Assembly (NCBI GenBank): GCA_036924835.1
Contig: JBAGRR010000001.1
Location: 5,905,001-5,969,000 of the forward strand
Source: Nitrobacteraceae bacterium AZCC 1564
GTDB taxonomy: Bacteria > Pseudomonadota > Alphaproteobacteria > Rhizobiales > Xanthobacteraceae
Length of the DNA: 64,000 nucleotides
Direction: 5' to 3'
The position numbers and the translations under genes were made by a program. Below the pieces are notes generated by a model, which saw nothing but the letters and a program-made list of their open reading frames with translations, made no database searches and had not been told where the DNA came from. Shown here in pieces: positions 5,983 to 33,731 of this stretch (its first letter is position 1; each line of letters starts with the position of its first letter).

Positions 5983-6044
5983 TCAGAAGTTCGCTGGAAG
6001 GACTCGCTGGAAAGATCGAGCGAAGTTCTGAACTACCACACTAG
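5983..6044. repeat. CTAG-type hairpin element, one end degraded
   Basis: Inverted arms TCAGAAGTTCGCT (5983-5995) and AGCGAAGTTCTGA (6019-6031), then CTACCACA and CTAG at 6041-6044. It matches the element at 7574-7654. The left outer end has decayed. Its CTAG supplies the TAG stop (6041-6043, minus strand) of the neighbouring aldolase-like gene. Confidence 0.8.
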
Positions 6045-7120
6045 CGAAGTTTTCCCCGTGCAACAGTCGGAAGCGTGCCGATAATCTCGTCACCACGAAC
6101 CATCACCACCTCGTCAGCCATGTTGACGACGACGCAGACGTGATTTGGCACGATGCGCACCACATCGCCGATAGCGGGCCGGCTGTTGGTTTTCGACAGG
6201 TCGAGAAAGCCGTGTTCTTCAGCAAAGCGTGCGATTTTGGCTTCCGGATGTTCAAGGATCAGTCCATAGCCATCAAGGCCGCCTGAATCCGCGGTCAATG
6301 TCTTGGAGCCGGCGTCGAGAATACCTCGCTCCGGTGCGGCACGGCTGACGACCGTGGAATAGACGTGCAAGGCGCAGTCGTCCCACGAGGCAACGCCAGC
6401 GGCGACTTGCATGCGATCATTGTAGATGTAAGTGCCGGGCCGATGTTCTGTCGCGCCGTCAAGTTTTCCGACGTTCTTTAAATTCGGGGAGCCACCGGTC
6501 GATACGATGGTCGGAGTGAGGCCCAATTGCCGGACGCCGCTCAAGGCATCGTTATAAAACTGTTGCGCCTCCTGCCATCCCGTCTCGGTGGGGTACAGCA
6601 TAAAACCTGCGAAAGCGAGGCCGGGTGTATCGGAAATTTGTTTGGCAAGAGCAATCGCCTCTGCAGGCGTTTCGACGCCCGCACGCTTGCGGCCGGTGTC
6701 ACACTCGACAACCACGGGGAGAGGGCGTCCTGCGGCGATCCCAGCATCGGAGAGTCCTCCGATCACCACGGCATTGTCCGCCGCCACTGTGACATTTGTC
6801 CTTGTCAGCAGGGCACCAAGGCGGGCAACCTTTTCCTCGCCGATCAAGTTGTAACTGATCAGGATATTGTCGAGGCCGGCTTCCGCCATCACTTCGGCTT
6901 CGCCAAGCTTCTGGCACGTGATGCCCTGAGCTCCGGCTTGAATTTGAAGTCGCGCCAGGATTGGACTTTTGTGTGTCTTGATATGCGGCCGATTGGCGAC
7001 GCCCGCCGTGTCGCAGAGGGCCTGGATGCGCGCAATATTCCGTTCAACGCGGTCCATATCGATGACAAGTGCAGGCGTGCCGTATTCCTTGGCAATCTTT
7101 GCGGCGAGCGGGGTGGTCAC
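6041..7120 (-). CDS. D-threonine aldolase / D-serine dehydratase-like PLP enzyme
   Basis: A 359-residue fold-type III (alanine racemase-like barrel) PLP enzyme. The N-terminal GTPALVIDMDRVERNI and RPHIKTHK segments are typical of the family; Lys48 in the latter should carry PLP. The C-terminal domain has the metal-ligand pattern VPNHVCVVVN used by D-threonine aldolases and D-serine dehydratases. Which reaction it performs is not certain. The start is GTG 7120, preceded by AAGGAG at a spacing of five. The stop codon is formed by the terminal CTAG of a repeat element. It appears monocistronic. Confidence 0.9.
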   Translation of the reverse strand: MTTPLAAKIAKEYGTPALVIDMDRVERNIARIQALCDTAGVANRPHIKTHKSPILARLQIQAGAQGITCQKLGEAEVMAEAGLDNILISYNLIGEEKVARLGALLTRTNVTVAADNAVVIGGLSDAGIAAGRPLPVVVECDTGRKRAGVETPAEAIALAKQISDTPGLAFAGFMLYPTETGWQEAQQFYNDALSGVRQLGLTPTIVSTGGSPNLKNVGKLDGATEHRPGTYIYNDRMQVAAGVASWDDCALHVYSTVVSRAAPERGILDAGSKTLTADSGGLDGYGLILEHPEAKIARFAEEHGFLDLSKTNSRPAIGDVVRIVPNHVCVVVNMADEVVMVRGDEIIGTLPTVARGKLR

Positions 7121-7166
7121 GATGGCTCCTTATCTTCACGACATCAGCGGCTTGCGATCCTCGCCA

Positions 7167-7654
7167 CTAGGGTCCCGAATTCAAAGTTCGCCTCAAATTG
7201 CGGCACACTCCGCAGCGAACTTTGGATTCGAAAGGACACTAGCAAACTTATGATTCTAGTGTCCCGATTCCGAAGTTCGCACAGGCTTGCTCAGATGCGA
7301 ACTTCGGAATCAAAGGGGCACTAGTAAGTCTATGATTTGAGTGCCGCTTTTGGATTTGAAGTTCTTCATCGAGCTTGCGGCTCCACTCGGAAGAACTTCA
7401 AATCCGCGGCACTAGTGTCCCGTCTCCGAATAACCGACCTATTTGCCGCGCGCTCGCACGGTTATTCGGAGACGATAGGACACTAGCAAAATCAAAATGC
7501 GAGTGTGGCTTTGTCTCGCAATTGCCGATAAGGGGCCAGCCGCAAGACAGGTCGGCAATTGCGAGACGCCACACTCGTGTGGTTTAGGTTTCAGAAGTTC
7601 GCTGGAAGGACGCACGGGAAAAATTGGAGCGAACTTCTGAACCACCACACTAGA
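7167..7654. repeat. Cluster of six CTAG-type hairpin elements
   Basis: Six elements of 69-81 bp at 7167-7242, 7256-7324, 7337-7415, 7412-7486, 7500-7577 and 7574-7654. Each has long inverted arms and ends in CTAG or a close variant (CGAG, CTCG, TTGA). Elements are joined either by a 12-13 bp AT-rich linker or by sharing one CTAG. Four inner-arm families occur: CGAAGTTCGC, GATTTGAAGTTC, CGAATAACCG and GCAATTGCC, plus CAGAAGTTCGC. With the next cluster this fills most of the gene-free stretch 7121-8010. Confidence 0.9.
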
Positions 7655-7713
7655 ACGAAGCCTATCTTTATTTGTTGGTGGATTGAAGCCTGCTCCAGTC
7701 GGGCGCGCCGGAA

Positions 7714-7874
7714 ACGATGTCCCGAATCCAAAATTCACCTCATGCAGCGCGTTCCGTAGCGAACTTCCGAATCAAAGGGACACGAGCAAGCCCATGATTT
7801 AAGTGCCGCTTTGCGATTTGAAGTTCATCGAGCTTGCGGGATCACTCACAAGAACTCCAAATCCGCTCCACTAG
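7714..7874. repeat. Pair of CTAG-type hairpin elements, partly decayed
   Basis: Two elements, 7714-7786 and 7799-7874, joined by a 12-bp linker. The first has the CGAATCCAAA type arms, the second the GATTTGAAGTTC type; several arm mismatches show decay. The same two families are joined in the same way at 7256-7415. Confidence 0.8.
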
Positions 7875-8010
7875 GACTCCGTCCTAAATTCCACCTTCAT
7901 TCTGAGCCGATCATGTCAGGGACTTCGATACCTCTTTAAAAGTGAAGAGCCGCTCTTAAGTTTATCCAGCCTGTGGATGGTGCAGGCCTTGGCAAATATG
8001 TGAGGCACAG

Positions 8011-8508
8011 ATGTTTTCGTTTGGATCGGTCGGAAAAAGTGTGGCAGCGGCAGCTGTTTTGGGATTGTCACTGGTTGCCACCGAATCTATGGCGCAGTCT
8101 TCTCAACCATTCGCAGGCATGTCGGGCGTCTGGTCGGGGAGGGGCACCATTTCGCTGGAAGGCGGAGCCCGCGAAGCCATTCGTTGCCGGGCGACCTACG
8201 CCGTGAGAGCCGATGGCAACGGCCTGCAGCAAACCCTGCGTTGTGCGAGCGATAGCTACAGAATCGAGCTCTCGAGCAACGTCATTGCAAATGGCGGTAG
8301 ATTGACAGGGACCTGGAGCGAAGCGACGCGCAATATCAGCGGCGAGCTTCGAGGGACCACATCGGGCGGCCGTTTCCACGTGACCGTCAACGCCGGGTCC
8401 TTTGCTGCGGATTTAACTTTAACAACGCACGGCAATTCGCAGGCCGTTGTGATCCGCTCCGACAGCGGCGAATTCAGGGGCGCCAATATCAGGCTGTCCC
8501 GCACGTAG
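8011..8508 (+). CDS. Conserved secreted protein of unknown function
   Basis: A 165-residue protein with a Sec-type signal peptide (residues 1-29, ending SMAQ) and a mature part rich in beta-forming residues (GVWSGRGTISL, RCRATYAV, GGRLTGTWSE). This looks like a small periplasmic beta-barrel or lipocalin-like fold, and two cysteines (CRATY and RCASD) could form a disulfide. I do not recognise a named family. It stands alone between the repeat cluster and the LptF-like gene. The ATG at 8011 gives a proper signal peptide. Confidence 0.75.
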   Translation: MFSFGSVGKSVAAAAVLGLSLVATESMAQSSQPFAGMSGVWSGRGTISLEGGAREAIRCRATYAVRADGNGLQQTLRCASDSYRIELSSNVIANGGRLTGTWSEATRNISGELRGTTSGGRFHVTVNAGSFAADLTLTTHGNSQAVVIRSDSGEFRGANIRLSRT

Positions 8509-8684
8509 CGGTCAGTTGCTGAAAGTCTGGTAGACGGACACCGTTGGTTGATCGAGACAGACTAACTGGCGGTGGTAACGCGCCGTGCAGTCGCGTTGAA
8601 GAAAAAATTATCTATATGGTTCAGTGATATAACAGCGGTTCGTTGCCTTGACGGTCTTCTGTCCGGGCTGTAACCGGGTGGCAG

Positions 8685-9845
8685 ATGAAGGCAATCGACA
8701 CCTACACCATTCGGACGACGCTGCTGGCGTTCCTGATGGTCCTCGTCTCTTTGACGGGGATCATTTGGGTGACACAAGCGTTGCGCGGCATCGATTTGAT
8801 GACCGGGCAGGGACAGTCGGTCCTGGTCTTTCTCGGCGTCACGGGATTGGCCATTCCTCTGCTCGGCATGATCATTGCGCCGATCGCGTTGCTTATCGCG
8901 GTGATGCATTCGCTGAACAGGTTTGCGACTGACTCCGAAATCATCGTGATGAATGCGGCCGGGTTATCCCCCACGCAATTTCTTCGGCCGTTTCTGATTG
9001 CGACCTGTGCGGTGAGTGTGCTGGTCGCGTCACTCTCGATCTATATCGCGCCGGAGTGCCTGCGTGCGCTGAGGAAATGGCAAACCGAGATCGGTGCGGA
9101 TGTCCTCACCAACATCCTTCGGCCAGGTGAGTTCACGAAATTGGGCCCGCTGACCATCCGTGTTGATGGCCGACAGCCCGGGGGCGTTCTGGTTGGTATC
9201 TTCATCGACGATCAGCGAAATCCGGCAGAGCGAATTGACATCCTAGCCGAGCGTGGAACCGTCCAAAAGAATGAAAGGGGATCATTCCTCGTTTTGCAGG
9301 ATGGCAATCTCCAACGGTTCGAAGCCGGAAAGCGTGATCCCGCACTGGTCGCATTCAAGAGCTATGCATTCGATCTTTCGCAATTCTCGAATATGACGCA
9401 GAATATTACGTACAGCGCCCGCGAAAGATCGTTCGGTGAGCTTCTGTCGCCGCCTCAAGACGATCCGATGTATCAGCAAAGGCCAGGGGAATTTCGGACG
9501 GAGCTCCATGACAGGATCATCGCGCCGATCTACCCATTTGTCTTCGTGCTCATGGCCTTTGCGGCTCTCGGTGCGCCGCGCACGAACAGGCAGAATCGCA
9601 ACTTCGCGATCGCAGTGCTCATCGTCGGCATTCTTGTCGTTCGTATCGCAGGTTTTGGTTTTTCGACGGTGTCAGCAAAGATTCCTACTGCGATCATAGG
9701 GCAGTATGTCATGCTTGCGCTTGTCTGCGCGGGAAGTACGTGGCTGATCATGCGGGGAGTTATCATCGATGCTCCCACCAACCTGCTTGCAAATGTGCAA
9801 CGCTTGATCAATCGATTCACGCCCGCACGAGCGCGGGCGTCCTAG
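8685..9845 (+). CDS. lptF: LptF/LptG family LPS-export permease
   Basis: A 386-residue YjgP/YjgQ-family permease. Three membrane segments lie in the first 110 residues (starting RTTLLAFLMVLVSLTGI), a soluble beta-jellyroll-like periplasmic domain in the middle, and three more membrane segments at the C-terminus (from about residue 285). LptF and LptG move LPS from the inner membrane to the LptA bridge together with the LptB ATPase. In this window it is single, with no lptG, lptD or lptB beside it, so it may be the genome's only LptF or an extra paralogue tied to the polysaccharide genes. Its TAG stop (9843-9845) is the CTAG of a repeat. Confidence 0.85.
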   Translation: MKAIDTYTIRTTLLAFLMVLVSLTGIIWVTQALRGIDLMTGQGQSVLVFLGVTGLAIPLLGMIIAPIALLIAVMHSLNRFATDSEIIVMNAAGLSPTQFLRPFLIATCAVSVLVASLSIYIAPECLRALRKWQTEIGADVLTNILRPGEFTKLGPLTIRVDGRQPGGVLVGIFIDDQRNPAERIDILAERGTVQKNERGSFLVLQDGNLQRFEAGKRDPALVAFKSYAFDLSQFSNMTQNITYSARERSFGELLSPPQDDPMYQQRPGEFRTELHDRIIAPIYPFVFVLMAFAALGAPRTNRQNRNFAIAVLIVGILVVRIAGFGFSTVSAKIPTAIIGQYVMLALVCAGSTWLIMRGVIIDAPTNLLANVQRLINRFTPARARAS

Positions 9846-9914
9846 TATCCCGAATCCAAAGTTCGCTATGGAGCGCGCTGCACGATGAGGCGGACTTTGG
9901 ATTCGGGATACTAG
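9842..9914. repeat. Solo CTAG-type hairpin with two identical short ends
   Basis: A 73-bp element with arms CTAGTATCCCGAATCCAAAG at one end and its complement at the other. Unlike most copies, both ends are of the short type, so the outer stem pairs with no bulge. It lies between the convergent lptF-like and gmd genes and gives lptF its stop codon. It could act as a bidirectional terminator, but no T-run follows. Confidence 0.9.
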
Positions 9915-9932
9915 CGGTCGAAGCGTATCGTC

Positions 9933-11012
9933 TTATTCGTGGTAATTATACGCCGTGAAACCTGCGCTCTGGACCAAGTGATCACGCTGGGCTGCAGTGA
10001 AGTCTTCTTTGACCATTTCGGCAACGAGTTCCTCGAAGCTGATTCTAGGTGACCAGCCGAGTTTTTCGCGCGCCTTGGTCGCGTCGCCGAGCAGGCTTTC
10101 GACTTCCGCCGGCCTGAAATAACGCGGATCAACAGCGACAATCAGCTTGCCATTGGCATCGTAGCCTTTTTCGTCGACGCCTTTGCCCTTCCAGGTAATC
10201 GTCATGTCGAGCATGCGTGCAGCAACGTCAACGAACTGACGAACGCTGTATTGTACCCCGGTCGCAATGACGAAATCCTCAGGGTGCGCCTGCTGCAGCA
10301 TCAGCCATTGCATCTCAATGTAGTCTTTCGCGTGCCCCCAATCGCGCAGGGCGTCGAGATTTCCGAGATACAGTGTGTCCTGCAACCCGAGCTTGATGCG
10401 CGCTAGCGCCCGGGTGATCTTGCGTGTGACGAACGTCTCACCGCGCCGCGGCGACTCGTGATTAAACAGGATACCGTTACAGGCATAGAAGCCATACGCC
10501 TCACGGTAATTGATCGTGATCCAGTATGCATAAAGCTTCGCGACAGCATAGGGACTGCGGGGGTAGAAGGGCGTTGTTTCCTTCTGCGGGACTTCTCGCA
10601 CCAATCCATACAATTCCGAAGTCGAAGCCTGGTAGAATTTGGCCTTGTCCTTGAGCTTGAGGATGCGCATGGCTTCCAACAGTCGCAGCGTACCCAGCGC
10701 GTCAGAGTTTGCTGTGTATTCCGGCTCTTCAAAGGATACCGCGACGTGGCTTTGTGCTGCGAGGTTATAGATTTCGTCAGGGGCGACGTCTTCCATAATG
10801 CGGATGAGCGAGGAGGAGTCGGTTAAATCGCCATGATGAAGCACGAAATGGCGATGCTTGACTTCAGGACCTTCGTAGATGTGGTCGATGCGGTCGGTGT
10901 TGAAAAGCGAGGTACGGCGCTTGATGCCATGTACTTCGTATCCCTTGGCCAGCAGAAATTCGGCCAGGTACGATCCATCCTGTCCGGTCACACCGGTAAT
11001 AAGTGCCTTCAT
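9933..11012 (-). CDS. gmd: GDP-mannose 4,6-dehydratase
   Basis: A 359-residue short-chain dehydrogenase/reductase of the Gmd type, converting GDP-mannose to GDP-4-keto-6-deoxymannose for fucose, rhamnose or perosamine in surface polysaccharide. Visible are the NAD(P)-binding [12 protein letters not shown] at the N-terminus, the SELYG segment, and the active-site YxxxK as YAVAKLY. The usual partner fcl (GDP-fucose synthase) is not next to it. The ATG at 11012 is preceded by GGAG at a spacing of nine. It is upstream of a repeat pair that fills most of its leader. Confidence 0.97.
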
Positions 11013-11024
11013 ATGCTTCGGCTC

Positions 11025-11192
11025 CTAGTGTCCCGGTTCTAACGTTCGCATCACTTTGCAGCACTCTCGTTTGCGAACGTAGAACCAGGAGAGACACTAG
11101 CAACTCTATGAAGCTAGTGCGGTTTTGGATCTGACGTTCGTATAATGGACTCGCGGTTAATTCTGATACGAACGTCAGATCCACCGCACTAG
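11025..11192. repeat. Pair of CTAG-type hairpin elements
   Basis: Elements 11025-11100 and 11114-11192, joined by a 13-bp linker. Inner arms are GGTTCTAACGTTCGCA in the first and GGATCTGACGTTCGTA in the second. The ends facing the linker carry a few extra bases in the outer stem; the outer ends do not. It lies immediately upstream of gmd. Confidence 0.9.
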
Positions 11193-11399
11193 GTCAGCTA
11201 CGCCGGGATGTGCGGCGAAGACTGATGATCGCCGAGAGTCAATTTGCGCCACCCCTAACGGCTTGAGGCCTTGAAGACAAGCTACCGGATTGGGGCTGGA
11301 AGTCGCAAAAAAGAAGCAAGCCAGCGGCTCCTTGCCGAACAAAACCACATTTGGCACGTTAGGGGTGACAATGGCGCCAATCCCTCTGGTTCGTAACGG
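11193..11399. other. Intergenic stretch with a widely spaced inverted repeat
   Basis: No gene is seen here. It contains an 11-bp perfect inverted repeat, CACCCCTAACG at 11250-11260 and CGTTAGGGGTG at 11357-11367, with 96 bases between. The purpose is unknown; it could close a long RNA hairpin or mark the ends of a small decayed insertion. Confidence 0.5.
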
Positions 11400-12212
11400 T
11401 TGGGTGTGGATTTGTTGCGACGCAAGAGTTTTTCCATCGGATTAGGCATATTCGCGGCAGTTGCCGCTGGAAGCCTTGTTGCCGGTCAGACCATTCAGGC
11501 CCCGGCAACTCAGAATAAGCCTCGCGCGCTACAGGATGCGGCGGCGGAAACGACCGGAAGTGTCCCGCCGTCCACGGATGCGGTCAAACCGGTAGATGCT
11601 GCTAAACCGGCGGAAGCTCCCAAGCCTTCGTCAGCGGATCAAAATTCTGCAAACACTTCGCAGTCATCGGAGACGCCAGCACCGCTACAACTTTCGCCAG
11701 CGGAGCAAAAGGCAGCGGAAGCAAAAGCCGCGCTCGACCGGCTGTTGGCTGAAGCCAGCGCCTTGAAGGCGAGCTACGAGGACTACAAGCGCGGCCGGAG
11801 CAAGACACCGGTGTCTTTGTCCGCCTTCCGCAGCATGGAATTGAGGCTGATGATGGCAGCCGCAGCAGATCCCACAAATACCAAGGCGCGTGAGATGGCT
11901 GGAGCCATGCGCATGGCGCAGTTTGAAATCCTCCGGCCATCCGTGCAAATCGCAGCTATCGCCAATCGCCAACTCTATGCGCATGCGATGGCGGAACGGA
12001 TGCGCGACGACGGCATGCAGGTCGAGGTATCTGGTCGGGACAACAGCATCGTGCGCTTCGTGTCGCCGCAGATGACCAAGCAAATGGCCATGCAGCTAGC
12101 CGACAGCGCGAAGATTTCAGAACAAGCGAAATCTCTGCAGTTTAGCCGCGTGGTGTTCAGCAACGGCCGGCGCTCGTGGACATATAACGTTCGCAGGGGA
12201 CGATTCCGCTAA
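11400..12212 (+). CDS. Hypothetical membrane-anchored or exported protein
   Basis: About 270 residues, not assigned to a family. The N-terminus has a basic patch and a hydrophobic segment (FSIGLGIFAAVAAGSLVAG) that is a signal peptide or anchor, then a low-complexity Ala/Pro/Lys/Ser stretch to about residue 95, then a helical, coiled-coil-like part (AEQKAAEAKAALDRLLAEA) and a conserved-looking C-terminal half. The start is uncertain: TTG 11400, GTG 11406 and TTG codons just after are all possible and none has a clear ribosome-binding site. A good bidirectional terminator follows. Confidence 0.7.
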   Translation: MGVDLLRRKSFSIGLGIFAAVAAGSLVAGQTIQAPATQNKPRALQDAAAETTGSVPPSTDAVKPVDAAKPAEAPKPSSADQNSANTSQSSETPAPLQLSPAEQKAAEAKAALDRLLAEASALKASYEDYKRGRSKTPVSLSAFRSMELRLMMAAAADPTNTKAREMAGAMRMAQFEILRPSVQIAAIANRQLYAHAMAERMRDDGMQVEVSGRDNSIVRFVSPQMTKQMAMQLADSAKISEQAKSLQFSRVVFSNGRRSWTYNVRRGRFR

Positions 12213-16056: not shown

Positions 16057-16222
16057 CTAGTGTGGCAGTTCAGAAGTCCGCATCATTCGTGCAGCGTGTC
16101 CGAAATGCGGACTTCTGAACCAAAGCCACACTAGATCCAATAACTTGCTAGTGTCCTTCGATTCCGAAGTTCGCAAACGAACGTGCAGCGCAATGATGCG
16201 AACTTCGGAATCGGGACACTAG
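16057..16222. repeat. Pair of CTAG-type hairpin elements
   Basis: Elements 16057-16134 (inner arm GTTCAGAAGTCCGCA) and 16148-16222 (inner arm GATTCCGAAGTTCGCA), joined by the 13-bp linker ATCCAATAACTTG. The bulged ends face the linker. The same two families are paired at 21715-21878 and 29051-29215. The pair fills most of the 277-base gap between the priming transferase and the GT4 gene. Confidence 0.92.
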
Positions 16223-20423: not shown

Positions 20424-20495
20424 CGAGTGCCGCGGATTTGAAGTTCTTCCGGGTGAAGCCGCGAGCTTGTGCGAACTTCGGAATCGGGACACTAG
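20424..20495. repeat. Hybrid CTAG-type hairpin element
   Basis: A 72-bp element whose left arm (GCCGCGGATTTGAAGTTCTT) belongs to one family and whose right arm (GCGAACTTCGGAATCGGG) belongs to another, so the arms pair poorly. Both are short ends. It looks like a heterotypic pair that lost its interior and linker by deletion. Its right CTAG (20492-20495) supplies the TAG stop of the acyltransferase gene on the minus strand. Confidence 0.85.
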
Positions 20496-21714: not shown

Positions 21715-21951
21715 CTAGTGTCCCGATTCCGAAGTTCGCATCATTCCGCAGCACGTTCGTCTGCGAACTTCGGAATCGAAGGACACTAGCAAGTTATTGT
21801 TCTAGTGTGGCTTTGGTTCAGAAGTCCGCATTCCGGACACGCCGCCCGAATGATGCGGACTTCTGAACCGCCAACTAGTGTGGCGTCTCGCAATTGCCGA
21901 CCTCGTTTGCGGATGGTCCCTTATCGGCAATTGCGAGAGACGGGACACCAG
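21715..21951. repeat. Three CTAG-type hairpin elements
   Basis: Elements 21715-21789 (arm GATTCCGAAGTTCGCA), 21802-21878 (arm GTTCAGAAGTCCGCA) and 21875-21951 (arm GTCTCGCAATTGCCGA). The first two are joined by a 12-bp linker, the last two share one CTAG. The third ends in CCAG rather than CTAG. They occupy the space between the divergent acyltransferase and deacetylase-like genes. Confidence 0.92.
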
Positions 21952-21970
21952 GGCGACCTTATTCAAACAA

Positions 21971-23394: not shown

Positions 23395-24504
23395 ATGCTC
23401 TCCGCTGTGATCGATCGACCAGAAAAGCCCGTGGCAAGCCTGCGCGGAGTGCGCATTTGGCTGGTCTGCGTAGCCGCGCTCATCGTGTGCATGGTGCTGG
23501 TCGGCGGTGCGACGCGCCTGACGGAATCCGGCTTGTCGATTGTCGAGTGGAAGCCAGTCACAGGCACTATACCGCCGCTGACAGCAGCGCAGTGGAACCA
23601 AGAATTCGAAGCCTACAAGACCATTCCGCAGTACCGCGAGATGAACGCGGGCATGTCGCTGTCCGAATTCAAGACAATCTTCTTTTGGGAGTGGGGCCAT
23701 CGGCTGCTGGGGCGCCTGATCGGGGCTGCATTTCTGTTTCCGTTTCTTTGGTTTCTCTGGAAAGGCGCCTTTAACAACGCCGAGGGGCTGAAGCGCAGGC
23801 TCTGGATGATCTTCGCCTTGGGCGGGCTGCAGGGGGCCGTCGGTTGGTGGATGGTGAAGTCCGGTCTCACCGACCGTGTTTCTGTTTCGCAGTATCGGCT
23901 TGCAGCGCACTTGATGCTGGCGCTGTTCATCTTCTCGGCCATCGTCTGGACGCTGCGACGGCTGGAGAAGCCATTAGCCATCGTCGCGTCTGCCCGGGTG
24001 AAATTCACGAGCCGCTTGTTGCTTGTGCTGGTTTTCCTGCAGCTCTATTTCGGAGCGCTGGTGGCTGGTCTCCGTGCGGGCAAGGTGTTCAACACGTGGC
24101 CACTGATCGACGGCGGTTTTATCCCGTCAGCTGAACGGCTGTTCTTTGAACGGCCCTGGTGGCGCAACTTCTTCGACAATACCCTCACGGTTCAGTTCAC
24201 TCACCGAATGATCGCTTATACGTTGCTCGTCGTTGCGACTTTGCATGCGATCGATGCCGTCCGTTCGCGGGCAAGTCCTGAAGTCGTGAGCAGGGCACTG
24301 TGGCTGGTCGTCGCAATGATCGTGCAGGCATCGCTCGGCATCATCACGCTGCTCAATCAGGTGCCGATCGATCTCGGTCTAGCGCATCAGGCTATGGCGA
24401 TCGTGGTCCTGACAATGGCTCTGTTTCAGACGGAGCGGCTGGGCGCAAAGTTGGCCGCGACCACACCGGCCAAACTCAGCCTGGTGGTCAGCAATCCTCG
24501 CTAG
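23395..24504 (+). CDS. ctaA: Heme A synthase (COX15/CtaA)
   Basis: A 369-residue membrane protein with eight predicted membrane segments. It oxidises heme O to heme A for cytochrome c oxidase. The N-terminal [22 protein letters not shown] and the His-bearing EWGHRLLGR and QFTHRMIAY segments match the alphaproteobacterial (type 2, COX15-like) form; these histidines bind heme. The ATG at 23395 fits the family length. Its TAG stop (24502-24504) is the start of a repeat element. Confidence 0.96.
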
Positions 24505-24832
24505 TGGAGTGGATTTGACATTCGCTACCCACCTGGCAGCGAGTTCGTCAAGCGAATGTCAAATCCAAAACTCCACTAGTGTGGCGTCTCGCAATTGCCG
24601 ACCTGTTTTGCGGCTGGTCTCCTATCGGCAATTGCGAGACAGAAGCCACACTAGCATTTTGATTTTGCTAGTGTCCTTTCGTCTCCGAATAACCGTGCGA
24701 GCGCGCCGCAAATTGGTCGGTTATTCGGAGACGGGACACTAGAAATTTATATTTGCTAGTGGTCCTTTGATTCTAACATTCGCAGGAGGTGTCTGCCGAA
24801 ACGGGATGCGAATGTTAGAATCGGACCACTAG
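24501..24832. repeat. Array of four CTAG-type hairpin elements
   Basis: Elements 24501-24579 (arm GGATTTGACATTCGCT), 24576-24654 (arm GTCTCGCAATTGCC), 24668-24742 (arm GTCTCCGAATAACCG) and 24756-24832 (arm GATTCTAACATTCGCA). The first two share a CTAG; the others are joined by 13-bp linkers. The array covers most of the gene-free stretch 24505-24979; nothing else is seen in 24833-24979 beyond an AT-rich leader. Confidence 0.93.
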
Positions 24833-27221: not shown

Positions 27222-27390
27222 CTAGTGGTCCGATTCTAACATTTGCATCCCCGTTTCAGCAGGCGTGTTAGCAAATGTTAGAATCAAAGGACCACTAGCA
27301 AATATGAGTTTCTAGTGGAGTTTTGGATTTGACATTCGCTTGACGAACTCGCAGCCGGGTAGGTAGCGAATGTCAAATCCACTCCACTAG
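27222..27390. repeat. Pair of CTAG-type hairpin elements
   Basis: Elements 27222-27298 (arm GATTCTAACATTTGCA) and 27312-27390 (arm GGATTTGACATTCGCT), joined by the 13-bp linker CAAATATGAGTTT. The same two families are paired the same way at 29212-29380 and 33563-33731. The pair fills half of the gene-free stretch 27189-27510; the rest shows nothing I can name. Confidence 0.93.
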
Positions 27391-27510
27391 ATTGGAATCC
27401 TGCGGGCGCGCGCAAAATCAGTCAAGCGGGGTGCCACGATCGGCGTTAATGCGGAAGGAGATTGGTTCGTTTTGCCGCAGTGAAGACGAACATGCTGCGA
27501 AATCACGGCA

Positions 27511-28095
27511 TCATGAAACGTCGTTCTTGTCCTTTGCGACACGATCCGCTGCGGTGGTCGCGCCGCCACTGACGCTTGCACGATTCAATGACAGACGCAT
27601 GCTGCTGGTAGGGATCGGTGCGCGTTTCGAGCTCAGGGTGCGCGAGTTCACGCCCATCCACTGAATTTCTGAAGTCAGGCGACCATATTCGATTTTCGGG
27701 CAGCGATTCATCACGACCTTGATGCCGGCCGCTTCTGCCTTGGCCGCCGCGGCATCGTTGCGCACACCAAGTTGCATCCAGATCACCTTCGGCAATGTCG
27801 AAAGCTGCAAGACCTCGTCGACAATCGCGCCCGCATGATCTGAGTTGCGGAAGATGTCGACCATGTCGATTGGGCGTCCAATATCTTTCAATGAGCCGAC
27901 GAAGGGCTTTCCAACTAGGCTTTTGCCGACCTGCCCCGGGTTGATCGGAATCATGTCGTAACCGCGCTCGGCGAGGTATTTGAACGCAAAGTAGCTCGGA
28001 CGAACGTTGACCGGGGAGGCGCCGACCATGGCGATGGTTTTGACCCCGGTGAGAATACCGCGGATGTAAGCGTCGTCGTATGCGTCGTGATTCAT
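27511..28095 (-). CDS. CoA-binding domain protein (YccU-like)
   Basis: A 194-residue protein whose first 150 residues form a Rossmann-type CoA-binding domain: TIAMVGASPVNVRPSYFAFKYL, GYDMIPINPG and IWMQLGVRNDAAAAKAEAAG are typical. The last 40 residues are Ser/Ala/Lys-rich and unlike the family, and may be a tail acquired by stop-codon loss. It starts 19 bases after the enoyl-CoA hydratase gene on the same strand, so the two are probably co-transcribed. Function is not established for the family. Confidence 0.87.
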   Translation of the reverse strand: MNHDAYDDAYIRGILTGVKTIAMVGASPVNVRPSYFAFKYLAERGYDMIPINPGQVGKSLVGKPFVGSLKDIGRPIDMVDIFRNSDHAGAIVDEVLQLSTLPKVIWMQLGVRNDAAAAKAEAAGIKVVMNRCPKIEYGRLTSEIQWMGVNSRTLSSKRAPIPTSSMRLSLNRASVSGGATTAADRVAKDKNDVS

Positions 28096-28114
28096 CTTGG
28101 ATTTTCCGCCGGCC

Positions 28115-28960
28115 TTACCGGTCTTCCCACTTGGGCGCGCGCTTCTCGATGAAGGCTCCGATGCCCTCCTGCGCGTCGCGCGCCATCATGTTCTCGGTCA
28201 TCACCTGTGCCGTGTAAAGATAAGCATCCGCAAGGCTCATTTCGGCCTGCCGATAGAATGCCTCTTTGCCGATCTTGAGGGTGTAGGCCGACTTCAGCGC
28301 TATTTTCTTCGCAAGGTCGATCGCGGCCTGCCGCACCTCGCCGGCAGGGACGACGTTGTTAACGAGCCCGAGCTCCTGAGCCCGCTGTGCGGAAACCGGC
28401 TCGCCGGTCAGCAGCATATGCATCGCCTGCTTGCGCGAGATGTTTCGCGACAGCGCAACCATGGGGGTGGAGCAGAACAGCCCGATGTCGATGCCGGGCG
28501 TGGCGAACGTTGCTTGCTCGGACGCCACCGCAAGATCGCATGTCGCAACCAACTGACAGCCTGCGGCGGTTGCGAGACCCTGCACAGCGGCGACCACGGG
28601 TTTGGGAAGATGCACGATGGTCTGCATCATCGTGCTGCAGGCCGTCATGACCTGCGCAAAGTAGGCGCGTCCGTTGTCCGGGTCAGTGCGGCGCGCGGTC
28701 AGTTCCTTCAGATCGTGTCCCGAAGAGAATGCGGGGCCATTCGCTGCAATAACGACAGCGCGGATCACCTTGTCCTCGCGGACGGAGTCCAGTTGCGCCT
28801 GCAGCGACGCGATCATCGCTTCTGACAGCGCGTTGCGGGATTTGGGGGAATCCAGCGTCAACACGGCAATGCCGTCGATCGTTTCGCGCAACAAAGGCGA
28901 GGGTGATTGAGTCGGTGGTGCCGTTGCAGCCTGGATCGTCATGGCGATGTCCGTTGTCAT
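28115..28960 (-). CDS. Enoyl-CoA hydratase/isomerase family protein
   Basis: A 281-residue crotonase-fold protein. The oxyanion-hole segments are AFSSGHDLKEL near residue 80 and VQGLATAAGCQLVATCDLAVAS near 125. The catalytic glutamates of classical enoyl-CoA hydratase are not evident at the usual places (FATPGIDIGLFCST), so it may be an isomerase, hydrolase or inactive homologue. It is upstream of and probably co-transcribed with the CoA-binding protein gene. The ATG at 28960 has no clear ribosome-binding site. Confidence 0.88.
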   Translation of the reverse strand: MTTDIAMTIQAATAPPTQSPSPLLRETIDGIAVLTLDSPKSRNALSEAMIASLQAQLDSVREDKVIRAVVIAANGPAFSSGHDLKELTARRTDPDNGRAYFAQVMTACSTMMQTIVHLPKPVVAAVQGLATAAGCQLVATCDLAVASEQATFATPGIDIGLFCSTPMVALSRNISRKQAMHMLLTGEPVSAQRAQELGLVNNVVPAGEVRQAAIDLAKKIALKSAYTLKIGKEAFYRQAEMSLADAYLYTAQVMTENMMARDAQEGIGAFIEKRAPKWEDR

Positions 28961-29050
28961 TACGCCGTTTGTAGGCGAGGGGACGCCGATGTGAAATCTG
29001 TTTCCACTTTTGCTGATCGCCCTGTGTGTTACAAGGCCGTCATATAAGCA

Positions 29051-29380
29051 CTAGCGTGGCGGTTCAGAAGTCCGCATCATTTGTGCGGCAAGTCTGAAAT
29101 GCGGACTTCTGAACCAAAGCCACACTAGATCAATAACTTGCTAGTGTCCTCCGATTCCGAAGTTCGCAAACGAGGGTGCAGCGGAATGATGCGAACTTCG
29201 GAATCGGGACACTAGTGGTCCAATTCTAACATTTGCATCCCGTTGCAGCAGGTACGTTTGCAAATGTTAGAATCAAAAGGACCACTAGCAAATATAAGTT
29301 TCTAGTGGAGTTTTGGATTTGACATTCGCTTCCAGGCTTCGCTGCTACATGGGTAGCGAATGTCAAATCCACTCCACTAG
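29051..29380. repeat. Array of four CTAG-type hairpin elements (two pairs)
   Basis: Elements 29051-29128 (GTTCAGAAGTCCGCA), 29141-29215 (GATTCCGAAGTTCGCA), 29212-29288 (ATTCTAACATTTGCA) and 29302-29380 (GGATTTGACATTCGCT). Elements 1-2 and 3-4 form two heterotypic pairs with 12 and 13-bp linkers; the pairs share one CTAG. The array fills most of the gene-free stretch 28961-29396 and ends 16 bases before the thioesterase start. Confidence 0.95.
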
Positions 29381-29396
29381 CCAGGGCAGACCACCC

Positions 29397-29828
29397 ATGA
29401 ATAAAGCTAAAATGACTGTGGCGGAGCTTCAGGCGTTCCTCCACAAGGAGTTTCCGCAGGCTTTCGCCAGCGGTGAAATCCTGATCGAGAGCGCGGACGG
29501 CGCAACCAGCCTGCTACGCCAGCCTTATAATGCGCGGATGCTGCGGCCAGGCGGAACGGTTTCGGGGCCGACGCTCATGGCTCTGGCTGATTTCGCGATG
29601 TACGTGGTCTTATTGTCAGCAATCGGCCCCGTCGGGCTCGCGGTGACTACAAGTCTCAACATCAACTTCCTTCGAAAAGGACAGCCGGGACAGGATATCG
29701 TCGCTGCCGCCAAGCTCATGAAGCTTGGAAAGCGGCTTGCCGTCGGCGAAGTGCTGCTGCTGTCTGGGACATCCCCGGACCCGATCGCGCACGTGACCGC
29801 GACCTATTCCATTCCGAATGCTCAATGA
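29397..29828 (+). CDS. PaaI-type hotdog thioesterase
   Basis: A 143-residue hotdog-fold acyl-CoA thioesterase. The segment YNARMLRPGGTVSGPTLMALADFAMYVVLLSAIG is the family core with the catalytic Asp in ALADFAMY, and SLNINFLRKG the following strand. The acyl-CoA substrate is unknown. The frame is open further upstream through a repeat element, so ATG 29397 is preferred over any earlier codon; an ATG at 29412 is also possible. It precedes the ribosomal L13 gene but has its own gap of 150 bases. Confidence 0.88.
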   Translation: MNKAKMTVAELQAFLHKEFPQAFASGEILIESADGATSLLRQPYNARMLRPGGTVSGPTLMALADFAMYVVLLSAIGPVGLAVTTSLNINFLRKGQPGQDIVAAAKLMKLGKRLAVGEVLLLSGTSPDPIAHVTATYSIPNAQ

Positions 29829-29897
29829 TTCTACAGGTATCAAAATACCATATTTTTAAGTTATTGATTTGTAAGTTCTATTTCGTGCGATGAGGCG

Positions 29898-29926
29898 TTG
29901 ACGTGTGCGGCGCCGTTATTTAGAAA
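29898..29926 (+). promoter_or_regulatory. Candidate rplM promoter
   Basis: TTGACG at 29898-29903 and TAGAAA at 29921-29926 with 17 bases between, 53 bases before the rplM start. The -10 match is weak, so this remains a guess from position and spacing. Confidence 0.3.
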
Positions 29927-29978
29927 CCGCGGCAGCTTTGGCGATTTGCGCCGAACATCAATTTCACGGATCCCTCAC

Positions 29979-30443
29979 ATGAAGACGTTTTCGGCCAAGC
30001 CAGCCGAGGTCAATAAGAAGTGGGTGCTGATCGACGCCAAGGGTTTGGTCGTCGGCCGTCTCGCTTCTTTGGTTGCCATGCGTTTGCGCGGCAAGCACCT
30101 CCCGACTTACACGCCTCACGTTGATTGCGGTGACAACGTCATCATTATCAACGCTGCTCAGGTCGTCCTCACCGGACGCAAGCGTGAGAACAAGGTTTAC
30201 TACAAGCACACCGGCTTCATCGGTGGCATCAAGGAGCGCACCGCAAAGTCGATCCTTGAAGGCCGCTTCCCGGAGCGCGTTGTTGAGAAGGCTGTCGAGC
30301 GCATGATCCCGCGCGGACCGCTGGGCCGCGTACAGATGGGCAACCTGCGTGTCTATCCGGGTGCCGAGCATCCGCATGAAGCACAGCAGCCTGAAGTCGT
30401 GGATGTTGCATCGATGAACCGTAAGAACATGAGGGTCGCATAA
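29979..30443 (+). CDS. rplM: Large subunit ribosomal protein uL13
   Basis: A 154-residue ribosomal protein L13. The N-terminus [20 protein letters not shown], then [15 protein letters not shown] and [12 protein letters not shown], are standard for alphaproteobacteria. ATG 29979 is used; the upstream TTG in frame belongs to the promoter region. The stop overlaps the rpsI start by one base (TAATG), the usual L13-S9 coupling. Confidence 0.98.
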
Positions 30444-30919
30444 TGTCCGACACCATGCAGTCCCTCGACCAGTTGTCGTCGCTCAAGACCGCGACCGCCG
30501 AAGGTCCGAAGTACGTCAAGAAGGTCGACAAGCTTGGCCGCGCTTACGCTACCGGCAAGCGCAAGGACGCGGTTGCCCGCGTCTGGATCAAGCCGGGTTC
30601 CGGCAAGATCGTCGTCAACTCCCGCGAAGTCGAAGTCTATTTCGCTCGCCCGGTGCTGCGCATGATGATCCAGCAGCCGATCGTCGCTGCTGCCCGTCAG
30701 GACCAGTACGACGTGTTCTGCACCGTTGCAGGCGGTGGTCTCTCCGGTCAGGCGGGCGCTGTGCGTCATGGCATCTCGAAGGCTCTCACCAACTTTGAGC
30801 CTGAGCTGCGCGGCGTCCTCAAGAAGGGCGGCTTCCTGACCCGTGACTCGCGTGTCGTCGAACGTAAGAAGTACGGCAAGGCCAAGGCCCGCCGCTCCTT
30901 CCAGTTCTCGAAGCGTTAA
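30443..30919 (+). CDS. rpsI: Small subunit ribosomal protein uS9
   Basis: A 158-residue S9 protein. The body from [22 protein letters not shown] to the terminal [11 protein letters not shown] is standard; the basic SKR tail reaches the P-site tRNA. The first 30 residues form the N-terminal extension seen in alphaproteobacteria. It is coupled to rplM and followed by a strong terminator. Confidence 0.98.
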
Positions 30920-30960
30920 TCGCGACGATCAAATTGTCCGCAACCGCGGATTGGTTTCAA

Positions 30961-30986
30961 AGGGCGCCTCTTGGGGCGCCCTTTTT
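30961..30986 (+). terminator. Rho-independent terminator of rplM-rpsI
   Basis: Stem AGGGCGCC (30961-30968) / GGCGCCCT (30975-30982) with a T-run to 30986, 41 bases after the rpsI stop. Confidence 0.92.
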
Positions 30987-30989
30987 GCT

Positions 30990-31011
30990 TGTCCGAATCC
31001 AAAGTTCGCCT
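30990..31011. repeat. Half of a CTAG-type element
   Basis: TGTCCGAATCCAAAGTTCGC matches the left arm of the elements at 7167 and 9842 with one base missing. The right arm and the CTAG ends are absent. It lies directly after the S9 terminator and appears to be a decayed copy. Confidence 0.6.
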
Positions 31012-31162
31012 CTGATGAGTTCCAGACGTTGCGGAATTGCAGATAATTTTTCGCGAAAATTGTGTGACGGGCGCAAACGGAGTCCCAAGATACCGCCGCT
31101 AGCCTCTGATCGGCTGAGGGGGCTATTCCGGCTCCGTCTTTTTTCAAAGCGCACTATTAAAG

Positions 31163-32410
31163 ATGCCCGCTGGATCGCACCTGTCGCTGGATATTTCCAC
31201 GCTGTACCTCATTGCCACGTTAGCCGCCGCACTTCTCGGGATCATGCTGCTGTTCTTCTGGCGGCAGGAGAAGATCCCGGCACTCGGATGGTGGGGCGCG
31301 GCCTATCTTTTAGGTGCGGCATCGATTGCGTTATGGATCGCAGGCGGTGCGCAACTCGGTCAATGGCTGTCACTGGCGGTGAGCGCTGTAGGCTTCTTCG
31401 CCTGCGGTCTGGTCTGGGACGCCGCGCGCGTCTTTCACGGCCGCGCCCCGAACTGGATCCTTGTTCTCGCCGGTCCGGCGCTTTGGGTTGCAGCGATGAT
31501 CGCGCTTGATCCGCTCGATCCGGAAAAGCGCATGATCCTGAGTGCCGGCATCGTCGCGGTCTACGCTATGCTCACAGCGAGTGAGTTATGGCGCGAGCGC
31601 CGCAAGAGTTTACGGGCGCGGTGGCCTGCGATCATCGTTCCAGTTCTGCATGGTGCCGTGCTGGTGATGCCCATCGTGCTCGGAGATATGATGCGTGCGA
31701 CCGGTGCCACTATTGGAGCAGGATGGGTCGCAGTCTTTGCGGCAGAACTCGTGCTCTATGCCGTGGGCACGGTGTTCATCATCTTCCTGCTGGTTTCTGA
31801 GCGGACGGTCAGCGCACACAAGACCGCGGCGTCGATCGATCCGCTCACGGGTCTGCTCAACCGCCGCGGATTCGGCGAGGCAACGTCACGCATGATTGAG
31901 CGGGAGGCCAAGGCGGGCCGTCCGGTGACCGTAATGATTTTCGACATCGACCATTTCAAATCCGTCAATGATCGCTTCGGCCATGCGGCCGGTGACGATA
32001 TCTTGAAAGTATTCTCGCATTGCATTGTCACGTCTTTGCGGATCACCGATCTTGTCGGCCGCGTCGGCGGCGAGGAATTTGCCGCGCTTCTGCCGTGCGC
32101 CATGGATGAAGCGCTGCTCGCGGCCGAACGCGTGCGTGAAGCGTTCGAGGCATCCGGCGTATGCGTCGATGATGAACCACTGGCAACGACCGTGAGCATA
32201 GGTGTTGCGGGCGGTCCCGCGAACACGGAGCTTGAGGTGCTGATGGCCTCAGCCGACACCGCTCTTTATCAGGCCAAACGTGGTGGGCGTAATCGGGTGG
32301 AGGCGGCTGCAGAACAGCGTCCGCTGTCGCTTGAACAGTCGCGCCGCAAGATCGCTGGTGCATCGCACCATGACGTCCATCCAGTTCCAGCGATGGAAAT
32401 TCGGATCTGA
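31163..32410 (+). CDS. Membrane diguanylate cyclase (GGDEF domain)
   Basis: A 415-residue protein with six to seven membrane segments in the first 210 residues and a cytoplasmic GGDEF domain after IDPLTGLLNRRGF. The active site reads GGEEF, compatible with c-di-GMP synthesis, and five residues before it RITD forms the RxxD inhibitory site for product feedback. No EAL domain follows. The signal sensed by the membrane part is unknown. It appears monocistronic; a near-palindrome (AATTTTTCGCGAAAATT, 31045-31061) lies about 100 bases upstream. Confidence 0.93.
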   Translation: MPAGSHLSLDISTLYLIATLAAALLGIMLLFFWRQEKIPALGWWGAAYLLGAASIALWIAGGAQLGQWLSLAVSAVGFFACGLVWDAARVFHGRAPNWILVLAGPALWVAAMIALDPLDPEKRMILSAGIVAVYAMLTASELWRERRKSLRARWPAIIVPVLHGAVLVMPIVLGDMMRATGATIGAGWVAVFAAELVLYAVGTVFIIFLLVSERTVSAHKTAASIDPLTGLLNRRGFGEATSRMIEREAKAGRPVTVMIFDIDHFKSVNDRFGHAAGDDILKVFSHCIVTSLRITDLVGRVGGEEFAALLPCAMDEALLAAERVREAFEASGVCVDDEPLATTVSIGVAGGPANTELEVLMASADTALYQAKRGGRNRVEAAAEQRPLSLEQSRRKIAGASHHDVHPVPAMEIRI

Positions 32411-32534
32411 TGCACGGACCACGCAATAGGGCTGCATCAAACGTCGATGCGGTCCGCAAAAGTGCGGCTGGTACTTTTACCGAAATCAACTAAAGCTCCC
32501 GCTCCCTCACGATCCGAGGGCGGGGATTTCGTTA

Positions 32535-33566
32535 ATGCTTGGTGCAATTTATGCGGCGCTGGCCGCGCTCACATTCGCCATGAACAACACGGCGATGCGC
32601 CGGGGCGTGCTGACGGGCTCGGTCACGCAGGCCATGGCCATCACGGTGCCGCTCGGCGGAGTGGGCTTCGTTATCATTGCGGCGATCTCCGGCCAGCTCG
32701 GTTCTCTGTCTTCGTTTCCTCCCATTGCTTTGTCCTGGCTTATCGCTCAGGGCTGCCTGCATTTCCTGTTGGGGCGGTTTTTCAACTACCAGGCCAACAA
32801 GCTCGTCGGCGTGAACATCTCCGCGCCGGTGGTTCAGCTCCAGGTCGTGGTGACGATGTTGCTCGCCGTTGTACTGATGAAGGAACCGTTCACGGTGCTT
32901 CAACTGTTCGGCACGATCTTGATGCTTGCCGGATCATTCGCGACACAACTGCATTCGACAATCGGTAAGCGCGTTGTGCGCTCCGAAAAGGTGGTTGCCG
33001 TTGAGGCCGCACCTTCGGCGGCCAAGCCCATGTTCAAGCCGCAATACCTGCCAGGATTCTTGAGCGCGCTGGGGGCGGCCACCTGTTACGGCATTTCCCC
33101 GCTCATGGTGCGCATGGCGTTCGAAAGCATGCCGGTAAAGAGCCCCATGGCGGGAGGCGTGATTGCCTACACGGCGGCCACCATCGTGCTGTGCTTCCTG
33201 GTCCTGCCATCCCCATCGATCCGCAAGGACGTGCTTTCGCTGAATCGAAGCAACGCGATGTGGTTCGTGGGGTCCGCTATCCTCGTCGCGATGTCGCAAG
33301 GCTTCGTCTATGCGTCGCTGGCTGTTGCGCCGCTGATGGTGGTGACGCCCATTCTGCAGTTGTCGCTGGTCTTCCGGCTGTTCCTGTCGCAGATGATCAA
33401 TCGCGAGCATGAGGTGTTGAATACATCCGTTGTCGTCGGGGCCTTAGTGACGATCGTTGGCTCCATCATCGTTTCGCTGGACACCAACTACGTGCTGTCG
33501 TTAGCGGACCTGACTGGCCGTGTTGCCGATATTCTGCGCTTCCGTCTGGATGGCGGGGGTCCCTAG
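32535..33566 (+). CDS. DMT superfamily (EamA-like) transporter
   Basis: A 343-residue membrane protein with about ten hydrophobic segments in two EamA-like halves (LGAIYAALAALTFAMNNTAMRRG and FLSALGAATCYGISPLMVRMA), separated by a charged linker near residues 140-165. Such proteins export metabolites or amino acids; the substrate is unknown. The purine stretch GAGGGCGGGG sits about ten bases before ATG 32535. The TAG stop (33564-33566) is formed by the CTAG of the downstream repeat. Confidence 0.88.
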   Translation: MLGAIYAALAALTFAMNNTAMRRGVLTGSVTQAMAITVPLGGVGFVIIAAISGQLGSLSSFPPIALSWLIAQGCLHFLLGRFFNYQANKLVGVNISAPVVQLQVVVTMLLAVVLMKEPFTVLQLFGTILMLAGSFATQLHSTIGKRVVRSEKVVAVEAAPSAAKPMFKPQYLPGFLSALGAATCYGISPLMVRMAFESMPVKSPMAGGVIAYTAATIVLCFLVLPSPSIRKDVLSLNRSNAMWFVGSAILVAMSQGFVYASLAVAPLMVVTPILQLSLVFRLFLSQMINREHEVLNTSVVVGALVTIVGSIIVSLDTNYVLSLADLTGRVADILRFRLDGGGP

Positions 33567-33731
33567 TGGTCCGATTCTAACGTTCGCATCCCGTCTCGGT
33601 GGGCACCTTTGCGAACGTTAGAATCGAAGGACCACTAGCAAATATAAGATTGTAGTGGAGCTTTTGGATTTGACGTTCGCATCACGAATTCGCGGCAAGC
33701 AGGGTAGCGAACGTCAAATCCGCTCCACTAG
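33563..33731. repeat. Pair of CTAG-type hairpin elements (last in the window)
   Basis: Elements 33563-33638 (arm GATTCTAACGTTCGCA) and 33652-33731 (arm GGATTTGACGTTCGC), joined by the 13-bp linker CAAATATAAGATT. The left CTAG contains the stop codon of the DMT transporter gene. No further copy is seen from here to 64000. Confidence 0.94.

Follow-up and report, generated by a model that had tools for sequence, protein, structure and literature searches.

Palindromic elements in the window

The DNA analysed here, referred to as the window, is a 64,000-nucleotide stretch (bases 5905001-5969000) of the single 5,994,409-bp contig of Nitrobacteraceae bacterium AZCC 1564 (hereafter the host). Its first 34 kb carries a family of short hairpins that run from CTAGTG to CACTAG, most of which are joined in pairs by a short linker. 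A search for the exact pattern (CTAGTG...CACTAG) identified 17 hairpins in the window, and a looser profile search identified 30, all of them within 5983-33731 and none in the 34-64 kb region; a first-pass annotation of this DNA had placed ~31 in the first 34 kb. The hairpin profiles for the host sample (defined below) were built from nine subtypes, and the labels class A (with a TCC-type outer stem) and class B derive from these host-trained profiles. We read the 30 hairpins as 13 composites and 4 leftovers, which are arranged as follows.

5983..6044, minus strand: remnant B0-type hairpin; its CTAG provides the TAG stop of the open reading frame (ORF) at 6041-7120 (minus strand)
7167..7242, plus strand: class A hairpin A1, which hosts a nested array
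7243..7255, plus strand: linker of 13 bp, CAAACTTATGATT
7256..7415, plus strand: nested composite A1 (69 bp) - linker - B6
7412..7577, plus strand: nested composite A3 - linker - B5, sharing a CTAG with its neighbour; the B5 feet are CGAG/CTCG
7574..7653, minus strand: class B hairpin B0, in our reading the displaced partner of 7167-7242
7714..7874, plus strand: degenerate A1-B6 composite
9842..9914, minus strand: solo hairpin; its CTAG provides the stop of the ORF at 8685-9845 (LptF/LptG)
11025..11192, plus strand: composite A1 - linker CAACTCTATGAAG - B20
16057..16222, minus strand: composite B0 - linker - A1; the empty allele of relatives is ~4 bp there (e.g. CCAA, CCAG)
20425..20479, plus strand: B6 fragment adjoining the CTAG at 20492
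21715..21878, plus strand: composite A1 - linker CAAGTTATTGTT - B0
21875..21953, plus strand: unpaired B5 hairpin abutting the composite at 21715..21878
24501..24832, minus strand: nested array, B2 directly followed by B5 - linker - A3 - linker - A4; its CTAG provides the stop of the ORF at 23395-24504
27222..27390, plus strand: composite A4 - linker CAAATATGAGTTT - B2, with two bulged stems (z = -13)
29051..29215, minus strand: composite B0 - linker - A1
29212..29380, plus strand: composite A4 - linker - B2, sharing a CTAG with the composite at 29051..29215
33563..33731, plus strand: composite A4 - linker - B2; its CTAG provides the stop of the ORF at 32535-33566

The composites at 29051..29215 and 29212..29380 are missing together from two relatives. 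Five long ORFs of the window stop on the TAG of an element CTAG foot (6041, 9842, 20492, 24501 and 33563). An Rfam scan of window positions 1-36000 detected tRNA only, and the elements match no curated RNA family. Two first-pass statements stood in part. The location of the hairpins between genes holds loosely, 55 long ORFs of the host sample running into an element, and the lack of a transposase applies to the 10 ORFs of the first 34 kb that were checked, nine of which belong to other Pfam families and one to no family.

Abundance and pairing of the hairpins

The whole host genome contains 738 exact hairpins. For detailed analysis, we used a host sample of 1.6 Mb in 20-kb stretches plus the window (1.66 Mb in total, ~28% of the genome), to which the host results below refer. 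In this sample, the profile search identified 439 hairpins, which occupy 1.9% of the bases. Because the exact pattern matches 197 hairpins in the same sample, we extrapolate that the whole genome carries ~1,600.

These hairpins follow a strict pairing rule. Among 140 isolated two-hairpin clusters, 138 join class A to class B; same-class pairs numbered only two, compared with 69.7 expected and a minimum of 48 in 10,000 shuffles. Pairing is also specific at the subtype level (mutual information 0.906 versus a maximum of 0.170 in 5,000 shuffles), and the 138 A-B pairs include 67 of A1-B0, 34 of A4-B2, 7 of A3-B5 and 7 of A1-B6. The non-random partners proposed by the first-pass annotation therefore recur well beyond the window in all four of the named combinations, and their comparison with chance in the host sample gave results far from the shuffled expectation. 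Several seeming same-class junctions are nested insertions rather than exceptions to the rule.

The geometry of the pairs is equally constrained. In 136 of the 140 isolated pairs, the hairpins are inverted with their long (bulged) ends toward the linker, and of the 136 short junctions (8-15 bp between neighbouring hairpins), 125 have linkers of 12 or 13 bp, in agreement with what had been noticed in the window. The linker sequence is oriented and pair-subtype-specific, with CAA (or TAA) on the class A side. The length of the composite is 157-171 bp in 118 composites. Near-exclusive heterotypic inverted pairing, together with the nesting and whole-composite polymorphism described below, thus bears out the proposal of a ~165-bp unit made of two different hairpins; the nesting, the covarying feet and the apparent overwriting of the target go beyond what the first-pass annotation described.

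Elements show no preference for either end of genes. When the longest ORF on each side was considered, 193 sides were gene heads and 192 were tails, and a preference for gene 3' ends was accordingly rejected. Of the 55 long ORFs running into an element, 32 stop on the TAG of CTAG, whereas frame alone predicts one-third; this enrichment probably reflects which insertions survive. No hairpin is present in 20 of 84 bins (≤20 kb), the G+C content of which is unchanged. Hairpin-free DNA includes a run of 160 kb as well as window positions 34000-64000, and covers host positions 3.72-3.88 Mb and 1-80 kb. Such stretches may be later-acquired islands or regions excluding insertion, and element density could serve to date acquisitions. 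CTAG itself is rare outside the hairpins (789 seen versus 2154 expected for the sample under a first-order model), and 613 of the 1402 CTAG words in the host sample lie in hairpins.

Hairpin structure and CTAG feet

Each hairpin consists of a ~25-bp stem with CTAG/CTAG feet, in which ~3 nt bulge out on the strand next to the linker. Whether modelled as DNA or as RNA, the composite at 27222 gives two ~25-bp stems with the linker unpaired between them, and the 3-nt bulge of each stem sits ~10 bp up from its foot, facing the linker (DNA, -52.4 kcal/mol, z -13.4; RNA, z -13.3), and ten single hairpins of the window gave fold z values from -5.9 to -11.0. A consensus fold of 45 class A hairpins of three subtypes contains 15 pairs, in the lower stem only, and at least one pair-keeping change on both sides was found in 12 of these.

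A comparison of the partners in 147 composites, which were also used for the foot tally of composites below, revealed that their upper stems are more similar to each other (identity 0.75) than those of shuffled partners (0.65, sd 0.008). The lower stems differ little from the shuffled value (0.50 versus 0.48), still exceeding all 1,000 shuffles. Judging from these identities, the upper stem may represent a common recognition sequence.

The feet were examined in the 367 of 388 near-full hairpins in which the TG/CA anchors are in register. Both feet are CTAG in 225 of these and non-CTAG in 51, and in 24 of the 51 the two altered feet are exact complements, mostly CTCG with CGAG. In the composites, CTAG occurs at 224 of 294 outer feet and at 230 of 294 inner feet. 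Because the outer feet are no more degenerate than the inner feet, which never touch the target, they look element-borne; CTAG, the paired foot of each stem, thus seems to be brought along by the element. Two composites located apart have an identical set of four CTCG/CGAG feet and a linker variant in common, which inheritance of the feet along with the element would predict. The two composites, however, lie in copies of a second palindromic repeat (see below) and therefore may not be independent insertions.

Empty sites and targets

Comparison of five related species (G013, G027, G018, G020 and G002) identified 12 distinct polymorphic sites; the scan was restricted to arrays of more than one hairpin, away from locus ends, at sites with flanks not already seen. 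The first four species are 88.8-94.9% identical and show ~84% identity to G002. At one site, the shorter allele represents the partial deletion of an element, which leaves 11 sites, six of them clear. One of these is filled in G013 and reads GGCAA-CCCGG-CTTGC in G018, G027 and G020. A second is filled in G020, with CCCC and CCCG in G018 and G013 and 16 bp in G027. A third is filled in G018 and G013, with TTAC in G027 and G020, and a fourth in G027 and G013, with CTTG in G018 and 19 bp in G020. The remaining two are filled in G013, one against four empty alleles (TCGG twice, CGTCGG and CGTCGA) and the other against three (one TCGG and two GCGCGG). All six sites have one or more empty alleles that begin with C or T, and five of the six have one or more that end with G.

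The host provides similar comparisons. Judged by length differences, 11 of 12 relatives have an empty allele of 2-5 bp (4 bp in six) where the window has the element at 16057, and the empties read CCAA, CCAG, CCGG or similar. Elsewhere in the host, a composite in the loop of a B11 hairpin replaces the CGAG of sister copies. No conventional target-site duplication was seen at the empty/filled comparisons: CCCGG, CCCC/CCCG, CTTG, TCGG and CGAG contain no TA, and TTAC contains one TA, of which no duplicate is left. An element with two CTAG feet thus takes the place of ~4 bp (3-6 bp at most sites).

Insertion is favoured over loss in the five cases where a single genome is filled (L175:4200, L176:8903 and L180:12590 in G013, L205:1266 in G027 and L264:1335 in G020). 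The site L175:16899 is filled in G013 and G018 and empty in G027, for which loss or another history is possible.

A second palindromic repeat, GCGTTTTCGAGCGAAGTGG-CTACCGG-TTCGCGTGAAGAAAACGC, appears to be hit recurrently. Among its 16 left-half matches in the host sample, 7 have a composite at or next to the loop and 1 has an apparently degenerate one, 6 are empty and 2 are damaged or poor. The seven composites comprise four of A4-B2 and one each of A1-B0, A1-B6 and a pair labelled A4-B6; because composites of the same type may be duplicates of repeat plus element, at least three insertion events are needed. This repeat (GCGTTTTCGAGCGAAGTGGCTACCGGTTCGCGTGAAGAAAACGC), the loop of which is a hotspot for composites, is found for example at host positions 184125, 594618, 2030866 and 3696331. 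Insertion into hairpin loops in general, an idea suggested by this hotspot and by the B11 loop, was not borne out: the folding of 13 empty sites did not surpass that of random 50-mers from the genome (mean rank 0.53), and the idea was dropped. A right half of the second repeat also lies in the window, directly beside a small perfect CTAG-bounded hairpin at 44559-44588 (CTAG-AGCTTCGG...CCGAAGCT-CTAG) that is unrelated in sequence to the elements.

Nested arrays

Composites are also inserted into one another. In the array at host position 2,242,711, the order is A4 - linker - A3 - linker - A1 - linker - B6, followed directly by B5 and B2. Equal numbers of A and B hairpins are present in 21 of 204 clusters (16 with four hairpins and 5 with six), some nested and some side by side. 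The 332-bp nested array at 24501-24832 of the window matches at least five other places in the host over at least 328 bp with 87-93% identity, these matches ending at the array's own edges, and a further match of 224 bp at 95% is among the matches listed. For the side-by-side pair at 29051-29380, one full match at 85% is among the matches listed. Either the outer hairpins carry another composite as cargo or one junction has been hit repeatedly. Because of the nested insertions and the whole-composite differences between related species, the unit that moves appears to be the ~165-bp composite of two hairpins. Hybrid solo hairpins, in which the outer arm of A is combined with the outer arm of B, also occur and probably represent deletions.

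Search for the moving enzyme and distribution in the family

The first-pass annotation had suggested looking for a RAYT (repetitive extragenic palindrome-associated tyrosine transposase) or IS200-like transposase flanked by the same ends, and none was detected. The Y1_Tnp domain (PF01797) has no match in the host or in the relatives G013, G018, G027 and G002, although G013 and G027 carry insertions absent from the compared relatives. It is present in 11 of 61 genomes, including G020. We examined 13 loci, 12 around Y1 genes elsewhere (some overlapping) and 1 around a DDE_3 fragment of the host, and found no flanking composite; the sole composite match at these loci is weak and partial (E 0.002) and more than 2 kb from the gene. 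A RAYT as the driver is thus unsupported for the host and the four relatives. The DDE_3 fragment is the only one in the host, where no search was aimed at other transposase families. G020, G004, G031 and G036 contain RAYT-like Y1 genes (L166-L170 and L171), whose open frames span 179-198 aa and which do not adjoin CTAG hairpins.

The exact pattern was found in 36 of 61 genomes (the host and relatives) and, in a wider draw from the family, in 75 of 149 genomes and 33 of 47 genera, with 0 to 847 hairpins per genome. By our count, 20 genera include a genome with at least five exact hairpins, and 13 contain only 1-4 matches, which may include chance matches. The reversed pattern served poorly as a control (0-96 matches per genome, exceeding the forward count in many genomes) because it reads GATC, a commoner word than CTAG; in its place, we used 24 genomes of other families, which gave 0-2 forward matches each. 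Among named records, the exact junction pattern was found in 13 stretches, 9 from Afipia, 3 from Bradyrhizobium and 1 from Nitrobacter. One query each against plasmid and phage sequences yielded no element match. In addition, another repeat of ~110 bp (L177:18233-18342) has copies in G020 and G002.

Proposed mechanism and alternative explanations

We propose, with a probability of roughly 60%, that the element is a ~165-bp non-autonomous miniature mobile element, composed of hairpin A, a 12/13-bp AT-rich linker and an inverted hairpin B, that is moved in trans. A trans-acting enzyme would recognise the two stems via their common upper-stem motif and use the two outer feet as the element ends. 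The element would be joined across a target of ~4 bp such as CNNG, whose bases would give way to the CTAG of the element either during insertion or shortly afterwards. The pair subtypes probably each have a recognition specificity of their own, and the complementarity of stems and feet may be kept by structural recognition, possibly with hairpin-templated correction. That this amounts to transposition of a new enzymology, in which the ends are a co-evolving pair of non-identical hairpins, ~4 bp of the target are overwritten by a palindromic foot without duplication, and pair-specific versions coexist and nest, is a tentative suggestion to which we would not quite give even odds.

Several observations weigh against this proposal. 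No enzyme was found for the element in the Y1 search of the host and four relatives. The unpaired hairpins of the 1.66-Mb sample were listed for signs of an autonomous copy, and no two of them were seen to form a matching pair around a gene; the majority are truncated, lie beside a decayed partner or resemble the hybrid solo hairpins. In the copy-identity comparison, which took in 157 of 160 composites, identity between nearest copies in the sample reached no more than 96.2%, with a median of 91.9%, so the burst in the host is not fresh-looking and the host may no longer be active. Insertion into a single junction time and again could likewise account for the recurrent nested arrays. In G013, six 20-kb stretches were chosen for holding elements, and of the 13 composites there, 7 pair hairpins that are both scored as class A; these still consist of two unlike hairpins in inverted orientation around a similar linker, so that heterotypy holds there too, but 'A with B' is not universal. 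As for the targets, two of the 11 interspecies sites have empties of 3 bp, or of 3 and 6 bp, and three are ambiguous at the junction (L205, L190/L193 and L236:8969). The length of the empty allele varies, some single relatives differing by 16-19 bp, and because the empties are compared between species, substitutions at the junctions are possible. Finally, for a composite lodged in an A-type loop of the host, the corresponding words in 15 sister copies are CTAG four times, CTAA three times and various others in the rest, and the outer feet are identical in 3 of the 11 composites in which both are altered, as duplication followed by correction would also give; two of these three have a common linker and repeat as target and may be one lineage.

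An unlikely explanation, but the one among the alternatives that we take most seriously, is a REPIN-like element (a pair of inverted repetitive extragenic palindromes, REPs) moved by a Y1 (HUH) RAYT/IS200 transposase that has since disappeared or has diverged beyond detection. The hairpins would be single-strand recognition sites with a CTAG foot, and the left foot would be target-derived and then corrected to CTAG. Y1 chemistry is consistent with the lack of target duplication. Inverted hairpin pairs, a foot tetranucleotide and bulges also fit, and 'double foot' REPs are described in the accessible text of PMC6006769. However, PF01797 has no match in the host or the four relatives, two of which (G013 and G027) hold insertions absent from the relatives compared, the 13 loci yielded a single weak partial match, and the foot is CTAG rather than GTAG/GTGG.

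Less probable again is a miniature inverted-repeat transposable element (MITE) of a DDE transposon (IS630/Tc1-like with TA, or IS5-like with YTAR), the duplicated target of which was later converted to CTAG by hairpin-templated correction. Of 160 composites, a majority of 94 have CTAG and 4 have CTCG at both outer feet, the short terminal repeat is CTAGTG, and 7 of the 15 sister copies at the nested site mentioned above read CTAG or CTAA. The six clear interspecies empties, in contrast, read neither CTAG nor YTAR, the foot variants are inverted complements within one hairpin, and the outer feet differ in 8 of the 11 composites with both altered. Target duplication of CTAG in the manner of IS630 was our first idea and was rejected because foot variants pair within the hairpin and the clear interspecies empties lack CTAG. 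Only one DDE_3 fragment is present in the host, where the search did not extend to other DDE families.

Somewhat more doubtful still is the capture of excised or copied pieces (DNA or reverse-transcribed RNA) at double-strand breaks by end joining, with small deletions and no duplication. The variable target loss, 3-6 bp at most sites, would be accounted for, but the ends are exact, the targets tend to Y...G, and one palindromic repeat has been hit repeatedly at one position, which calls for specificity. That the hairpins are instead host-useful structured RNAs or terminators, kept by selection and spread by recombination without being mobile, is very improbable, since their very stable stems with compensatory changes and the frequent ORF stops on TAG (32 of 55) are set against nesting, insertions seen in one species only, equal use of gene tails and heads, and a range from 0 to 847 exact hairpins among genomes of the family.

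Most surprising in the proposed trans-mobilised composite are its near-obligate heterotypy with common upper stems, the element-borne CTAG feet that replace ~4 bp, and species-specific insertions without a detectable RAYT. How short palindromic repeats spread in bacteria is a long-standing question to which RAYT is the usual answer. The element described here is abundant and occurs in many genera of one bacterial family, with polymorphic insertions, exact ends and a nesting that records the order of events, and no RAYT was detected in two insertion-bearing genomes; these features make the question of what moves it directly testable by strain comparison and genetics. The fixed A/B pairing with a common upper-stem motif would represent a built-in code for end recognition.

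Comparison with known systems

The literature matches listed include no recognisable description of the element, most subscription journals being outside the coverage. We conclude that the element is real, abundant, apparently mobile as a pair and undescribed in the searchable literature.

Among known types of element, MITEs of the IS630/Tc1 type leave a TA target duplication and those of the IS5 type a 4-bp YTAR duplication. Neither was found in the interspecies empty alleles, and the feet complement each other within each hairpin; at one nested site of the host, 7 of 15 sister copies do read CTAA or CTAG. RIME (Rhizobium intergenic mosaic element) is an intergenic mosaic of two palindromes of ~108 bp, and the composite resembles its general description as an intergenic two-palindrome element.

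For the architecture of REPINs and CIR elements, we relied on the accessible text of PMC3733652, PMC6006769, PMC2229807, PMC5082802 and PMC10969869. Br-REP1 and Br-REP2 of Bradyrhizobium, a member of the same bacterial family, are likewise intergenic palindromic repeats, one of which consists of three adjacent stem-loops (PMC5082802). Their consensus differs from ours, and in the accessible text of that paper CTAG appears zero times at a word start and no heterotypic rule is given. CIR elements of Caulobacter and Brucella (PMC2229807, accessible text) consist of two long inverted repeats joined by a linker, and our composites are similarly two-armed, intergenic, alphaproteobacterial and equipped with GANTC. 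However, CIR elements are ~110 bp, compared with 165 bp for the composite (157-171 bp in 118 composites), and their GANTC is located at the terminal loop, whereas most A1 and A4 hairpins have GATTC/GAATC within their stems and the A3 consensus lacks it.

The architecture is also like that of REPINs and REP-BIMEs (bacterial interspersed mosaic elements); the first-pass annotation had called the hairpins comparable to but distinct from REP/REPIN systems. Both are short inverted palindrome pairs with a linker, present in many copies between genes and provided with a foot tetranucleotide, and the inverted arrangement was found in 136 of 140 isolated pairs; REP heterodimers (PMC3733652) and 'double foot' REPs (PMC6006769) are described in the accessible parts of that literature. 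The REPIN/RAYT system differs in its GTAG or GTGG foot, where our hairpins have CTAG at both feet in 225 of 367 cases and variants such as CTCG/CGAG, and in its Y1 gene flanked by the same hairpins, an arrangement found neither in the host, the four relatives nor the Y1 loci examined. REPs are also only 20-40 bp, whereas the hairpins described here have ~25-bp stems and are mostly 74-81 bp long. Unlike REPINs, finally, they carry CTAG at both feet of both hairpins, pair almost exclusively with a different type and insert into one another.

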